From a virus: DNA of 35,256 bases. The notes under the pieces are model-generated. The model made no database searches. It worked only from the letters and a program-made list of their open reading frames with translations, and was not told the origin of the DNA. Location: IMG/VR virus record IMGVR_UViG_3300040807_002059, positions 1 through 35,256 of that record; one strand, written 5' to 3'. The stretch's first letter is position 1, and every line of letters begins with the position of its first letter. The position numbers and the translations under genes were made by a program. Shown here piece after piece: positions 18,896 to 28,265 of this stretch.

Positions 18896-19072
18896 GTGCT
18901 AACACTAGACCAGATAAGGAAAAGAGCGGAAAGTATGAATTTGTATAAGTTGGCAGAAAAAGCGGGCGTGCATCCCAACGCGCTATATAGTTTAATTAAC
19001 GGGAAATCCGATCCGAAATATTCGACAGTTAAGAAGGTTAGCGACTACTTAGAGAACTTAAATAATAAATAA
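18896..19072 (+). CDS. Cro-like helix-turn-helix regulator
   Basis: 58 residues from GTG 18896, with AGGAGG at 18882-18887, an ideal ribosome site. The sequence has the XRE/Cro fold pattern: a first helix (LDQIRKRAESM), then the helix-turn-helix KLAEKAGVHPNALYSLINGKS and a third helix (YSTVKKVSDYLENL). It is the first gene of the rightward operon at the divergent switch and probably binds the palindrome or promoters beside it. No large CI-type repressor with a cleavage domain is present, so it may be an early timing switch rather than a lysogeny repressor. Confidence 0.85.
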   Translation: MLTLDQIRKRAESMNLYKLAEKAGVHPNALYSLINGKSDPKYSTVKKVSDYLENLNNK

Positions 19073-19174
19073 ATTAACAAAAAAATATTTATTATTTTTA
19101 TATTGACCGCCTCAAATTTGCTGATTAGTCTTTTATGCGACGACATAAACACCAACAACAAAACGAGGCAATCA

Positions 19175-21400
19175 ATGCTTGATTATAAACAATATTTAGT
19201 TGCAGGTTTTAGGTTTTTTGGCATACATGGAGTAACAAACGGCGTTTGCGACTGTATGCGAGAAGATTGCGAAGCCCAATACAAACATCCGCGCATGAAC
19301 TCCTGGCAATACACGCCCTATAGATGGAGCGATGAACAGCTAGAAGTAATGGAAATGACCGGTCAATTTGATACTGGTATCGGTGTCCTAGTAGACGACC
19401 ATTTGATCATAGACATAGACCCAAGAAACGGAGGTTTAATGGGCTATGATGAGCTTTGTCACGATACGGGGCTAGATTTTGAGGAATTATCCGGCTTTGT
19501 GGTCAGAACCGGCGGCGACGGTTTACATATCTATTTTAAGCGCGAAAAAGGCCAAGCGCTTGTTTCACATCTAAAGCAATACCAGGGCATTGATTTTAAA
19601 TCTAGCGGCTTTGTAGTTGGCGCAGGTTCAAAGCATAAAAGCGGCAACAAATACGAAGTTATAAAAGGCACTCCATCCGATATTGGCGACCCGCCACAAG
19701 AGTTGATAGACCTGCTTAAAAAGCCTGAAATGGTACGCGCAGAGTATAAAGGGCAGCATATTGATCTAGATAGTCAGGCTATTATTGAGATGCTTAACCA
19801 TGTAGATCCCAATTGCGGGTATGACGAGTGGATCAAAGTTGGAATGGCTATCCACCATGGGACCAACGGCACAGGTTTTGAGCTTTGGGACGAGTGGAGC
19901 GCAAAAGGCGAAACATACCCAGGTTCAAAAAAATTAGATTTTCATTGGCACAGCTTTGGCAAGTCTGCAAATCCTGTGACTATTGGAACGCTTATCCACA
20001 TGGCAACAGAGGCCGGTTATATTGAGTCCGTTACTTTTGAAAGTGATATTAATATTGAACCATTAAAAGTAAACGAGTCTAGCGAGGTTGATTTATTGCG
20101 CCCACCTGGTTTCGTTGGCGATGTTGCCGCATGGATACGGGATCAATGCAGATTTCCACGGGAACACCTAGCAGTTGCGGCGGCTTTGTCTGCGATCGGT
20201 AATATTGCCGCGCTTGGTTATGTTGATAAAACCTATGGAGCCACCACCAACCAATTTATATTTTGTGTGGCTGGCTCTGCAACAGGAAAGGAAGCTATAC
20301 AGCAAGCACAAGGCGCAATCCATAGAGCCGTAGATATGGCCAAGTGTACACATGGTGACATTAAATCTGATGTAGAGATAGGGCGAAACCTAATCGAGCA
20401 TCAAGCGGCCTTTTATACTATTGACGAGCTGGGGTTGATCCTGGGCAAGATAGCAAACGCAGGGAAAAGCGGAGCAACATATTTAGAAGGCGTTATTGCC
20501 TCCTTAATGTCGATATATTCAAAAGCCAACGGCGTGTTACAGGTTAAAGGTGACGTAAAAAGGGAGCTTAGAAGGGAGATAGAAGCAAAAATAAATAGCC
20601 TGTTAGACAGCGGCGAAAATGACGACAAGTTAGGCGAGCTTGAAAAAAGGTTAAACGATGCTGAGATGGGTATTGTTAAGCCGTTTTTATCTCTCATTGG
20701 TTACACCACGCCCATTACCTTTGACGCCTTAGTAACTAGGGAGATGGCAACCAATGGTTTTTTTGGGCGCTCTTTGATAATCCACGAAAAAGAAACCAAC
20801 CCAAAACCAAACGAGAATTTTAACGAGCATGATATACCTTTCGGTATGGCTGCAACGCTTAACGCGATAGCCTGGCGCGGCAATGCAGACCAACACCGCG
20901 ACCGCATAGAGGAATATGCAGAAAGAACAGAAATAAAGACCACCGACGAGGCCAAGTCAATGCTCGCTGATATAGCACAGTATTACTGGAAGGAAGCAGA
21001 GAAAGCCAAGTTGGACACATTAGAGGCAATACCTAGACGATGCTTTGAGATGGTTTTAAAAGTATCCATGATATTAGCCATCCCAACAGGGATAAGGACA
21101 GAAGAACACGTAAACTGGGCCAATGCTTTTGTCAAAAGAGACATGGAGAATAAATTGAACCTGGTTGCGGGCAACATTGCCGAAGAACTAAAAAGGCACG
21201 ATGAAGCTATCGCCAGGAAAGTTTTGGGTATGCTTGATAAAGAAATACCATTAACTACCGGCGTTATTTGCAATAGATGCTCTAAATACAAAAAAGACGA
21301 CGTTGTATCAATATTGGAAGCACTAAAAACAAAAAACCTTATCCGTTCAAAAGAAAACACTAGCGGCAGAAAAAAAACAACCAACTGGTACTTGTCTTAA
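19175..21400 (+). CDS. Primase-helicase (Prim-Pol domain plus DUF3987-like helicase)
   Basis: 741 residues from ATG 19175, preceded by GAGG six bases upstream; the frame extends to 19103 but lacks a ribosome site. N-terminal part: a Cys-rich start (CDCMREDC), then the archaeo-eukaryotic primase-polymerase domain with Asp80-x-Asp82 in IIDIDP and a TGGDGLHIYF motif (112-121, with His118). Next a PriCT-type linker (about 210-290), then an ATPase with AGSATGKE (about 364-373), where the usual Ser/Thr after GK is Glu, as in DUF3987 proteins, and FYTIDELG as Walker B. The C-terminal 75 residues look like a winged helix. It would prime and unwind DNA at the adjoining origin-like repeat. Confidence 0.88.
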   Translation: MLDYKQYLVAGFRFFGIHGVTNGVCDCMREDCEAQYKHPRMNSWQYTPYRWSDEQLEVMEMTGQFDTGIGVLVDDHLIIDIDPRNGGLMGYDELCHDTGLDFEELSGFVVRTGGDGLHIYFKREKGQALVSHLKQYQGIDFKSSGFVVGAGSKHKSGNKYEVIKGTPSDIGDPPQELIDLLKKPEMVRAEYKGQHIDLDSQAIIEMLNHVDPNCGYDEWIKVGMAIHHGTNGTGFELWDEWSAKGETYPGSKKLDFHWHSFGKSANPVTIGTLIHMATEAGYIESVTFESDINIEPLKVNESSEVDLLRPPGFVGDVAAWIRDQCRFPREHLAVAAALSAIGNIAALGYVDKTYGATTNQFIFCVAGSATGKEAIQQAQGAIHRAVDMAKCTHGDIKSDVEIGRNLIEHQAAFYTIDELGLILGKIANAGKSGATYLEGVIASLMSIYSKANGVLQVKGDVKRELRREIEAKINSLLDSGENDDKLGELEKRLNDAEMGIVKPFLSLIGYTTPITFDALVTREMATNGFFGRSLIIHEKETNPKPNENFNEHDIPFGMAATLNAIAWRGNADQHRDRIEEYAERTEIKTTDEAKSMLADIAQYYWKEAEKAKLDTLEAIPRRCFEMVLKVSMILAIPTGIRTEEHVNWANAFVKRDMENKLNLVAGNIAEELKRHDEAIARKVLGMLDKEIPLTTGVICNRCSKYKKDDVVSILEALKTKNLIRSKENTSGRKKTTNWYLS

Positions 21401-21409
21401 TCAATATAT

Positions 21410-21440
21410 AGCGCTATCGTTATCTATGCGGTAGCGCTTT
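21410..21440 (+). terminator. Candidate terminator after the primase-helicase gene
   Basis: AGCGCTA (21410-21416) pairs with TAGCGCT (21432-21438), with a further C-G pair possible after one mismatch, and is followed by TTT. The T run is short, so termination may be partial. It separates the primase gene from the origin-like region. Confidence 0.5.
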
Positions 21441-21454
21441 CCTTTGACCTCCCT

Positions 21455-21785
21455 GGTCATAAATATTAAAAATATTTAAAAATATTTTTAAAAATAATCG
21501 CTACAGGCCGCATAAAACCTGATAAATACATAAATATCATAAATATTGACCCTTTTACTCTCAGAGACAAAAAAGCAATATTTTGGTATCTATTGTCCGA
21601 CCTCTCATCTATAAAGATAGGGAGAGGTGAGGTCGTATCTAAAGATAGTAGATCCCCACTATTTAAAGATTTCCCCCAAGCTAAAAAGACGCAATATTTA
21701 TGATATTTTTGTATTTATCAGTATTCATGCGGGTTACAGCGATTATTTTTAATATTATTTTTAAATATTTTTAATATTTATGATC
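21455..21785. repeat. Large inverted repeat, candidate replication origin
   Basis: The arms are 21455-21548 and 21692-21785, each 94 bp, 83 of 94 bases identical when one is reverse-complemented (11 mismatches, no gaps), around a 143-bp centre. The arms are AT-rich with repeated ATAAATATT and AAATATTTAAAAATA motifs that suit strand opening. The centre contains a long hairpin (21600-21628) and several AAAGAT motifs. The region has no gene, sits between the primase-helicase and the next operon, and has the makings of an origin. A mobile element or a regulatory cruciform is an alternative. Confidence 0.75.
21600..21628. other. Central hairpin of the origin-like region
   Basis: ACCTCTC at 21600-21606 pairs with GAGAGGT at 21622-21628; within it CTAT (21609-21612) pairs with ATAG (21617-21620) around AAAG, leaving a small internal bulge. 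CTATAAAGATAG is followed by related copies (TCTAAAGATAG and TTTAAAGAT) over the next 45 bases. A priming or protein-binding hairpin is plausible. Confidence 0.6.
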
Positions 21786-21844
21786 TATTTATAATAGCGG
21801 CCAGACCTCCTACCTTTATTGCATCGGCAACCGTCAACCAATAG

Positions 21845-21900
21845 TTTACATTTGAATACACAAATAATGTGTAAAAATGCTTTACATCATACAAATAATG
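21845..21900 (+). promoter_or_regulatory. Direct repeats overlapping the downstream promoter
   Basis: TTTACAT occurs at 21845-21851 and 21881-21887, and ACAAATAATG at 21860-21869 and 21891-21900. The second copies overlap the -35 element and spacer of the promoter at 21881-21908. They may be operator or iteron-like sites for a phage regulator. Confidence 0.45.
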
Positions 21901-21908
21901 CATATAAT
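21881..21908 (+). promoter_or_regulatory. Sigma70-type promoter for the second rightward operon
   Basis: TTTACA (21881-21886), a 16-base spacer and TATAAT (21903-21908). Five of six and six of six bases match consensus, and the predicted start falls about 28 bases upstream of the ATG at 21945. It would drive the small-gene operon 21945-25432. Confidence 0.7.
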
Positions 21909-22549: not shown

Positions 22550-22661
22550 GCACGATTGGTTAGGCGTGGCGGCTTTTGTGGTCATTATCGTTTTAGGTGG
22601 AGCTGTTCTTGATGATGACATCGAGCAACAGTGCAAAGTTGGTTTGGCGAGGTGTGAATAA
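22542..22661 (+). CDS. Small single-span membrane peptide
   Basis: 39 residues, ATG 22542 overlapping the upstream gene's end; the stop overlaps the methyltransferase start (TAATG). Residues 7-23 are hydrophobic (VAAFVVIIVLGGAVL), followed by an acidic and cysteine-containing tail. It might be an inner membrane peptide. Function unknown. Confidence 0.6.
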   Translation: MNKHDWLGVAAFVVIIVLGGAVLDDDIEQQCKVGLARCE

Positions 22662-23551
22662 TGAATGTATTAAGTCTTTTTGACGGTATGTCATGCGGTC
22701 AGATTGCACTGGATCGTGCAGGTATTAAGGTTGGCAAATACTATGCTAGTGAGTTGGATAAATACGCTATTACTGTTACTCAGGCGAATTACCCGGATAC
22801 TGTTCAGCTTGGCGATGTTACAGGTTGGCGCGAATGGGATATAGATTGGTCTAGTATTGACTTATTAATCGGTGGAAGCCCTTGCCAGGGTTTTAGCTTT
22901 GCTGGTAAACAGTTGGCTTTTGATGATCCACGTTCAAGGTTGTTTTTTACTTATGTGGATATTTTAAACCACATTAAATCGGTTAATCCTGACGTTAAGT
23001 TTTTGCTCGAAAACGTAAAAATGAAAAAGGAATACTTACAGGTCATTAGCAGCCAATTAGGTGTTGAGCCTGTTTGCATTAATAGTGCATTGGTTAGCGC
23101 ACAAAACCGAGTTAGGTATTACTGGGCTAATTGGGGCTTTGAACAGCCGGAGGATAAAGGTGTTTTACTCGCTGACATCATTGAAAATGGCGTGGCTGAT
23201 AGAGACAAATCTTTTTGTATAGATGCGAACTATTACAAAGGCGGCAATTTAAAAAGCTATTTTGAGAAAAATCGACGCCAGCTTGTATTTGACAAGTTAT
23301 GCGAAAATTTAAGGCATAAGTCCAAGACGGTAAGAAGTGGCGGCCGGGGCAGCTATGAGCGCCACGAATGGGACAGTGTCTGTACTTGCCATTGCAGAAA
23401 GCTAACCCCCATAGAGTGCGAACGCCTACAAACAGTTCCAGACGACTACACGGCAGCGGTTAGCAACACACAACGATATAAAATGCTTGGCAACGGTTGG
23501 ACGGTTGACGTTATAGCGCATATTTTTAGAAGTGTAACGGGTGATTTATGA
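22661..23551 (+). CDS. DNA cytosine-5 methyltransferase
   Basis: 296 residues. Motif I is SLFDGMSCG (5-13), motif IV GGSPCQGFS (71-79) with nucleophile Cys75, motif VI LENV (116-119), motif VIII QNRVR (148-152), then a target recognition region of about 100 residues and motif X LGNGWTVDVIAHI near the end. All are intact. It methylates carbon 5 of cytosine in a sequence I cannot predict. No restriction endonuclease is next to it, so it is an orphan enzyme that probably protects phage DNA from host restriction. It is coupled to a membrane peptide gene upstream and overlaps the next start. Confidence 0.93.
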   Translation: MNVLSLFDGMSCGQIALDRAGIKVGKYYASELDKYAITVTQANYPDTVQLGDVTGWREWDIDWSSIDLLIGGSPCQGFSFAGKQLAFDDPRSRLFFTYVDILNHIKSVNPDVKFLLENVKMKKEYLQVISSQLGVEPVCINSALVSAQNRVRYYWANWGFEQPEDKGVLLADIIENGVADRDKSFCIDANYYKGGNLKSYFEKNRRQLVFDKLCENLRHKSKTVRSGGRGSYERHEWDSVCTCHCRKLTPIECERLQTVPDDYTAAVSNTQRYKMLGNGWTVDVIAHIFRSVTGDL

Positions 23552-26569: not shown

Positions 26570-27019
26570 GTGGCAAAACGAGAGCTAAACGACAAACAAA
26601 TGGCATTTTGCCAAGAGTATATTGTTGATCTAAACGCAACACAGGCCGCTATTCGCGCCGGCTATTCAAAAAAGACGGCTAGAGCAATAGCAAACAAACT
26701 ACTTACAAAAGTAGACATTCAAGCCGTTATCGAGAAGTTAAAAGCAAAACGTGAAAAAAGAACGCAAATAAGCGCAGATTACGTGCTTTTAGAGCTAAAT
26801 CGAGTCAAAGAGTTAGCCATTAACGGCGACGAACAATACGGCAATGAGGGGCAATTGCTTGGCATTAAACGCCAATTGTCGGCGGCAGTATCGGCATTAG
26901 CTAAAATGGGCGAGCATGTAAACGTCAGGGCTTTTGACAGAGAAAAAGACACCCAACAAGACGCACAGCCTATAGGCCGGATTGAAATAGAGGTTGTAGG
27001 TGCGAACCTTAAAGATTAA
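26570..27019 (+). CDS. Terminase small subunit
   Basis: 149 residues from GTG 26570, preceded by AGGGG; a longer frame from 26531 is not supported. The N-terminus (ELNDKQMAFCQEYIVDLNATQAAIRAGYSKKTARAIA) is the typical Terminase_2 helix-turn-helix that recognises the packaging site. The C-terminus is helical and charged, ending in a beta strand. It forms a ring and activates the large subunit. The overlap of 20 bases with the large subunit gene suggests coupled synthesis. No classic cos region was identified. Confidence 0.9.
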   Translation: MAKRELNDKQMAFCQEYIVDLNATQAAIRAGYSKKTARAIANKLLTKVDIQAVIEKLKAKREKRTQISADYVLLELNRVKELAINGDEQYGNEGQLLGIKRQLSAAVSALAKMGEHVNVRAFDREKDTQQDAQPIGRIEIEVVGANLKD

Positions 27020-28265
27020 GGCAACCGAGCCGCAAGCGGCTTTTCATTCGTTAGCCTGCAAGCATCCCGCTTTTGTGGGTGGATTTGGGACCGGCAAATC
27101 TGAAACAATGGCAAACCAAGCCATACTAGACGCAAGCCATTCGTCGGATGCGTTAATAGGTCTTTACGAACCAACCTACGATCTGGTTAGGCTTATTATG
27201 GCCCCAAGGATGGAAAAAAAGCTATCTGAGTACGGTATTAGCTACAAATACAACAAAGCCGAAAATATCATATATACATCTAACGGCGGTTTTGGTGACT
27301 TCATTTTGCGAACGCTAGACAATCCGGCGCGGTTGATTGGTTACGAAACTTACCGTGGTCATATCGACGAAATAGACACGCTAAAAGATGAACATGCAAC
27401 AGACGTTTGGAATATGTTGGTTGCAAGAAACCGACAAAAACCCGAAGGCGTAGAAAAGCCCTTCAACCGGTTGAGTATTTACACAACGCCTGAAGGGTTC
27501 AAGTTCACTTATCGCACATGGAAGGAAAGCCCGAAAAAAGGTTATGAGCTAGTTCAGGCCAGTACCTTATCAAATCCTTTTCTGCCAGATGATTACGTCG
27601 AGACATTAAAGCAGGCTTACCCGTCCCAATTAATCGACGCTTATATTAATGGCGACTTTGTAAACCTAACAAGCGGGCGCGTGTATGCCCAGTTTGATAG
27701 AAAGCTAAACGCTTCTACCGAAGTGGTAGAGAAAGCCGATCATTTACACATTGGAATGGATTTTAACGTGGCTAAAATGTCGGCGGTTGTTCATGTGTTG
27801 AGGCAGGGCATACCCCATGCAGTGGATGAAATAACAGGCGCGTTTGATACGCCTGCAATGATTGAGATCATAAAAAACCGATACCCTATGCACTCGATAA
27901 GTATTTACCCAGACGCAAGCGGGCAGAATAGAAAAAGCGTGTCGGCCAGTGAAACTGATATTAGCCTATTAAAACGTGCAGGCTTTCGAGTTTATCACGA
28001 AACTAAAAACCCGCGGGTGCGTGATCGCGTTGTGACGGTCAATAGTAATTTTTGCAACGCAAAGGGCGAACGACGATATTTTGTAAATGTTGACAAGTGC
28101 CCGACATATACTAAAGATTTAGAACAACAAGTTTATGATAAGAATGGCGAGCCGGACAAAAAGCACGACACAGACCACACGACAGACGCAGCCGGATATT
28201 TTATATACTCGATGTTCCCAGTAATTAAACCGACCACACAGGCGAAAGCAAAATGGCGTATGTAG
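27000..28265 (+). CDS. Terminase large subunit
   Basis: 421 residues from GTG 27000. ATPase part: Walker A GGFGTGKS (27-34) and Walker B HIDEID (121-126). Nuclease part: a metal-binding acidic residue in GMDFN near 252, DASG near 304, and DHTTDAA near 395, the usual RNase H-like triad spacing. It cuts concatemeric DNA and pumps it into the head through the portal. It has no separate C-terminal extension, so it belongs to the short terminase forms. It is followed with a 13-base overlap by the portal gene. Confidence 0.9.
   Translation: MRTLKIKATEPQAAFHSLACKHPAFVGGFGTGKSETMANQAILDASHSSDALIGLYEPTYDLVRLIMAPRMEKKLSEYGISYKYNKAENIIYTSNGGFGDFILRTLDNPARLIGYETYRGHIDEIDTLKDEHATDVWNMLVARNRQKPEGVEKPFNRLSIYTTPEGFKFTYRTWKESPKKGYELVQASTLSNPFLPDDYVETLKQAYPSQLIDAYINGDFVNLTSGRVYAQFDRKLNASTEVVEKADHLHIGMDFNVAKMSAVVHVLRQGIPHAVDEITGAFDTPAMIEIIKNRYPMHSISIYPDASGQNRKSVSASETDISLLKRAGFRVYHETKNPRVRDRVVTVNSNFCNAKGERRYFVNVDKCPTYTKDLEQQVYDKNGEPDKKHDTDHTTDAAGYFIYSMFPVIKPTTQAKAKWRM

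Follow-up and report, generated by a model that had tools for sequence, protein, structure and literature searches.

A large inverted repeat of opposed iterons beside a PrimPol primase-helicase gene is a probable phage replication origin

For most uncultured phages, to our knowledge, the site where replication begins is not known. The alpha protein of satellite phage P4 is a primase-helicase with a winged-helix origin-binding domain, and the P4 regions ori and crr are separated repeat regions, the crr repeats being direct and lying far from ori. The crenarchaeal plasmid pRN1 carries a 100-bp stem-loop 54 bp after its PrimPol gene orf904, behind a terminator, and this stem-loop is necessary and, together with the replication operon, sufficient; the origin requires an intact stem-loop, and recognition of its shape by the initiator has been proposed (PMC4234260). 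Among pRN1-type plasmids the stem is kept and its sequence is variable, and a similar stem-loop has been proposed for the PriCT_2-carrying Bordetella phages BIP-1 and BPP-1 (PMC4234260). The origins of PICI/SaPI elements consist of two sets of iterons around an AT-rich region, directly 3' of the rep/initiator gene, a layout said to be shared by no other known bacterial replicon (PMC6092414). The PrimPol-helicase of phage NrS-1 is believed to initiate copying of the genome at defined sites, TTTGGTTA (PMC8718748), and primases of the PrimQH type join an MCM-like ATPase to a winged helix that has been proposed to act in origin recognition; MCM-like helicases are known in phages (PMC5862659).

The inverted repeat and its genetic surroundings

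We analyzed a stretch of viral DNA of 35,256 bp (hereafter the window), in which a long inverted repeat follows the gene of a PrimPol/PriCT-2 primase-helicase. The features of the locus are as follows.

18896-19072, + strand: ORF for an HTH regulator of 58 aa, 5' of the primase gene and in the same operon orientation (HTH_3, phrog_18104)
19175-21400, + strand: PrimPol, PriCT-2, predicted MCM-like AAA+ and winged-helix protein, the proposed initiator/replicase (phrog_3022)
21191-21397, + strand: part coding for the predicted C-terminal winged helix, the proposed iteron reader (AlphaFold model residues 52-119)
21410-21438, + strand: intrinsic-terminator-like hairpin 3' of the primase gene
21446-21451, + strand: GACCTC at the left edge
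21457-21556, + strand: left arm, with outer iteron block (21457-21501), connector (21502-21522) and inner iteron block (21523-21547)
21557-21683, no strand: centre between the arms, 61% AT
21599-21634, + strand: central hairpin with the edges GACCTC and GAGGTC
21684-21783, - strand: right arm, with inner iteron block (21693-21717), connector (21718-21738) and outer iteron block (21739-21783)
21804-21809, + strand: GACCTC at the right edge
21881-21908, + strand: sigma-70-like promoter TTTACA-16-TATAAT of the rightward operon

The inverted repeat itself is genuine. Its arms are reverse complements at 87 of 100 positions in an ungapped alignment with 127 bp between them, and the left arm begins 57 bp past the primase stop codon; the frame of an earlier note on this DNA (94-bp arms at 21455-21548 and 21692-21785, 83/94 identical and 143 bp apart) is likewise correct. 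With an ungapped score of 1 per match and -2 per mismatch the pair reaches 62, and the runner-up pair in the whole 35,256-bp genome reaches 13. When the 450 bp 3' of the primase were shuffled by dinucleotides, the score was matched in 0 of 100 cases (z = 43), and single-strand DNA folding gave -79 kcal/mol (z = -14). The arms are 80-81% AT, as compared to 56% for the genome. A megablast search of the phage collection returned no near-identical phage, and distant DNA matches to Campylobacter phages were dismissed as AT-rich noise.

Short iterons (ATAAATAT) make up each arm: a connector joins an outer block to an inner one, in which they stand in tandem at intervals of 8-9 bp. The inner tandems lie 122, 130, and 139 bp from the primase stop on one side and 293, 302, and 310 bp on the other, in opposed orientation. 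Quantification of arm-to-arm mismatches revealed 3 in 70 iteron positions vs. 7 in 21 connector positions (p = 0.001), which suggests that it is the sites, and not an unbroken stem, that have been kept. The hexamer GACCTC has 4 of its only 5 genomic copies at the edges of the putative origin and in the central hairpin (21446, 21599, 21629 in reverse, and 21804; binomial about 7e-8 for a site chosen post hoc).

Most of what the earlier note had described from the letters held up: the nested hairpin is present, the AT-rich repeats are there (ATAAATA, with 8 of its 24 genomic copies in the stretch), the stretch is free of genes except for an unconvincing 50-aa reverse ORF, and it does lie between the primase-helicase and an operon promoter, with the terminator-like hairpin before it and the sigma-70-like promoter after it. 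The AAAGAT motifs that it had listed do occur in three copies (21613, 21641, and 21665); since AAAGAT is found 31 times on the + strand genome-wide, they are weak evidence.

For the primase gene, the ORF list gives a TTG start at 19103, and the ATG at 19175 agrees better with relatives. A lone, possibly autoregulatory, iteron-like site occupies the short gap 5' of this gene (19082-19092). The opposite strand encodes SSB-like, Sak4-like, RecE-like exonuclease and helicase genes; the rightward operon beyond the putative origin includes a C5-cytosine DNA methyltransferase (22661-23551). A terminase match (27000-28262) is accompanied by a long run of late-type ORFs, virion genes other than terminase being judged from gene order only. 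GC skew gave no clean origin signal in the genome and is uninformative here because it tracks gene direction.

To characterize the protein we used AlphaFold models of the window primase aligned with its relatives (pLDDT 87). The gene encodes a Walker A-like GSATGKE and a Walker B-like IDELG, and the AAA+ domain is predicted to be MCM-like: its model aligned with the MCM structure 6mii (VIA Z 17.8, rmsd 3.5 over 270 residues) and, among the matches listed, 50 of 50 rows were MCM or replisome MCM subunits. The C-terminus is predicted to form a winged helix (pLDDT 93.8), with Z about 10-11 to many winged helices and archaeal Orc1 on DNA as the best Foldseek match (E 1.1e-3). The winged helix is a common fold and by itself no proof of function. 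A PDB sequence search with the family profile gave no meaningful match and no related solved chain.

Recurrence of the layout beside related primases

Relatives of the primase were collected from viral contigs and phage records, and 64 non-redundant loci were tested. A significant spaced inverted repeat was present within 450 bp after the primase stop in 27% of these loci. The corresponding shares were 1.2% for 773 control windows, 0.3% for windows placed within primase genes and 0% for the 64 upstream windows. Similarly, iterons (repeated 9-mers, counted on both strands) were significant 3' of the primase in 34%, against 3.1% of controls and 1.6% of upstream windows, and direct repeats were less enriched there (14% vs. 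7%). The inverted score exceeded the direct-repeat score in 17 of the 19 loci with an inverted-repeat score of at least 14. In the 21 loci with a strong pair, the repeat began at a median of 82 bp past the stop and had a median gap of 107 bp. In many relatives, including L004, L119, L118, L096, Pseudoalteromonas phage H103, L139, L114, and L003, no inverted repeat anywhere in the locus is stronger than the one just 3' of the primase. Of the cultured relatives with this layout, H103 is the nearest that we found. Iteron sequence changes between phages (GATAGTGA-like, CTTAGTGAA, GCGAAC, GACATGT, GTTTCCAA, and GTGTGTGC); the place and the opposed layout thus recur while the sequence is wholly different. 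In BPP-1, which served as our positive control scan, a 40/48 dyad after the primase, beyond an annotated ORF, consists of tandem TTGCCTCGT iterons.

About two thirds of the 64 loci were individually non-significant directly downstream, and some relatives had such repeats neither downstream nor upstream of the primase. A long continuous stem is usually lacking: most relatives have short or interrupted stems, yet clear iterons. Several loci (e.g., L101, L103, L123, and L004) have an outer group of 2-3 iterons with one reversed copy 11-16 bp inward, an inner tandem at 8-10 bp spacing, a centre, and then a rough mirror image. Left-right segregation of iteron strands was not significant in a simple test (p = 0.08) and a test of mirror spacing was marginal (p = 0.03), and we therefore treat the two-block pattern as a working model that rests mainly on the inverted-repeat and iteron statistics. 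The earlier note had called such a repeat unusual for siphovirus origins, which is right as regards arm length; opposed iterons after the primase, on the other hand, are common in this primase family.

Some Vibrio-type relatives have iteron arrays 5' of the primase (L065, 3346-3675; L071, 360-817; L078, 3358-3658), which suggests that the origin may lie on either side of the gene. We also observed that the metagenomic contigs L003 (at its 3' end), L087, L104, and L138 stop within or just before the post-primase repeat region, as if assembly broke at the inverted repeat. In L082, L083, L089, and L117, an insertion of several hundred bases separates the primase from the putative origin, whose sequence is kept further downstream; in L082 and L117 this sequence is found 450-600 bp further on with 86-88% identity.

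A comparison within the protein bears on which part could read the iterons. Between the window and L003, PrimPol/PriCT is 93-97% identical, the helicase 62% and the last 62 residues 48%, and the iterons are unrelated. In L093/L094 vs. L105, PrimPol is 88-90% identical and the helicase and C-terminal parts only about 32%, indicating that the primase gene is mosaic. This split fits recognition of the iterons by the C-terminal half; the same link could alternatively reflect recombination breakpoints within the primase gene. Correlation of downstream k-mers with domain identity over 4005 pairs, a measure partly spoiled by inserted genes, was weak (partial r 0.11 for the C-terminus and 0.22 for PrimPol).

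Proposed function and competing explanations

A mirrored pair that is often kept in place with a different sequence in distant relatives is most likely a replication start, and we consider it likely that 21446-21809 is a replication origin at which the primase-helicase binds the opposed iterons and loads two helicase rings, the arms melt and PrimPol primes. This reading draws on recurrence in diverged relatives and on the experimental precedents of pRN1 and the PICIs, and the putative origin is probably functional. We infer that the winged-helix tail of the PrimPol-MCM-like protein would bind the opposed iteron arrays, that the arm-bound protein would assemble two MCM-like helicase rings face to face, that the arms, at 80% AT, would melt, and that the PrimPol domain would prime both strands; the direction of replication belongs to the same proposal. 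The origin beside the primase-helicase suggested by the earlier note has thus gained support from position, opposed iterons and precedents, which falls short of proof; its idea of initiators on both arms agrees with how the iterons are laid out and with the winged helix predicted at the C-terminus.

The arms could instead extrude as a large cruciform or hairpin whose shape, not iteron sequence, is recognized by the initiator, as proposed for pRN1. The very stable predicted fold (z = -14) speaks for such a structure, as does the need for an intact stem-loop in pRN1 (PMC4234260). However, most relatives have short or interrupted stems with clear iterons, mismatches between the arms of the window hit the non-iteron connector and spare the iterons, and in BPP-1 the stem, too, is made up of iterons. 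Together, the short stems and the connector mismatches imply that recognition of sites, not pairing, appears conserved, and we regard shape recognition as unlikely. The extrusion raised in the earlier note is possible, and for an origin it would be optional and unnecessary. We find it more improbable still that the stretch is a regulatory operator or silencer, with arrays that bind the HTH regulator or the primase to control both flanking units while replication starts elsewhere. Its place between a terminator and a promoter, the iteron-like site 5' of the primase gene and the repressor genes adjacent to the primase would suit control of this kind, but the repeat comes after the primase gene and not at the promoter of the regulator, its size and opposed layout resemble the proven origins of pRN1 and the PICIs, and where DNA has been inserted the origin moves with the primase.

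Two further explanations seem scarcely credible to us. One is an insertion of the transposon or MITE type bounded by terminal inverted repeats, the earlier note having mentioned a transposon-like insert; long inverted arms that enclose a short non-coding centre and a GACCTCC direct repeat on both flanks could be cited for it. The element is single, no second copy being found within the 35,256-bp genome; GACCTCC is not flush with the arms, as a target duplication would be, and two further GACCTC lie inside; unrelated repeats occupy the same place in relatives; and two patterns made from the arm sequences had no match in viral contigs. The other, to which we give as little credence, is a structured non-coding RNA or attenuator transcribed from the stretch. 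A stable fold and the terminator-like hairpin upstream are in its favor; an Rfam search of the stretch gave no match, no promoter stronger than chance precedes the arms, and iterons running in both orientations within AT-rich arms would fit binding to double-stranded DNA.

If the stretch is an origin, a wider reading can be entertained, although we hold it to be rather doubtful at present: a large phage family may carry a one-protein counterpart of archaeal and eukaryotic origin licensing, with two MCM-like rings placed head to head on opposed two-block iterons by a PrimPol-MCM-winged-helix protein, iterons and winged helix changing together, in a layout previously reported only for phage satellites.

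Comparison with described systems

Earlier accounts of the design concern mainly satellites of phages and an archaeal plasmid, and our literature search, mostly of open-access papers, found no description of it as a general feature of such phages. The window family departs from these in the unusual length of the arms, in having the AT-rich sequence within the arms and in extending over phages that have virion genes of their own; what is unusual is how widely the design is distributed among such phages. As a search rule, the design points to the first few hundred bases 3' of a PrimPol-MCM-like primase as the place to inspect, and to opposed iterons with an 8-10 bp period, whose sequence is free to vary, as the feature to expect. 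With such a rule, origins of uncultured phages would be predictable from sequence and testable.

The window primase resembles the PrimQH type by domain order (AEP-PriCT-ATPase-WH in both); origins were not mapped for that type in PMC5862659, whereas the window has a candidate. With P4 the window phage shares a primase-helicase with a winged helix (predicted in the window) and two separated repeat regions. In NrS-1 the primase reads its site as a template, whereas the window iterons look like sites for binding to double-stranded DNA.

The PICI origin and the window repeat both lie directly 3' of the primase or initiator gene, with two iteron sets flanking a centre. The central region is AT-rich in PICIs, while in the window the AT content is higher in the arms (80%) than between them (61%); the window repeat would thus be a variant of the PICI-type origin and not a member. 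PICIs are satellites, whereas the window phage and relatives with their own virion genes show the layout. We also considered the window as a PICI element and rejected this in view of its terminase match and run of late-type ORFs.

The resemblance to pRN1 extends to the operon, which in both cases encodes a small repressor together with a PrimPol-helicase-winged-helix protein, the HTH regulator of the window being the positional counterpart of the pRN1 repressor. In both, a terminator hairpin is followed by a large dyad about 55 bp past the stop, and both in pRN1-type plasmids and in the window family (here in a subset of relatives) the dyad is kept while its sequence varies. The pRN1 dyad is a single 21-nt stem with a 58-nt loop, whereas the window has iteron-built arms of 100 nt that lie 127 bp apart, and the pRN1 helicase is described as superfamily 3 while that of the window is predicted to be MCM-like. 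Origin function has been demonstrated for pRN1; the window repeat, known from its sequence, is its probable phage counterpart.
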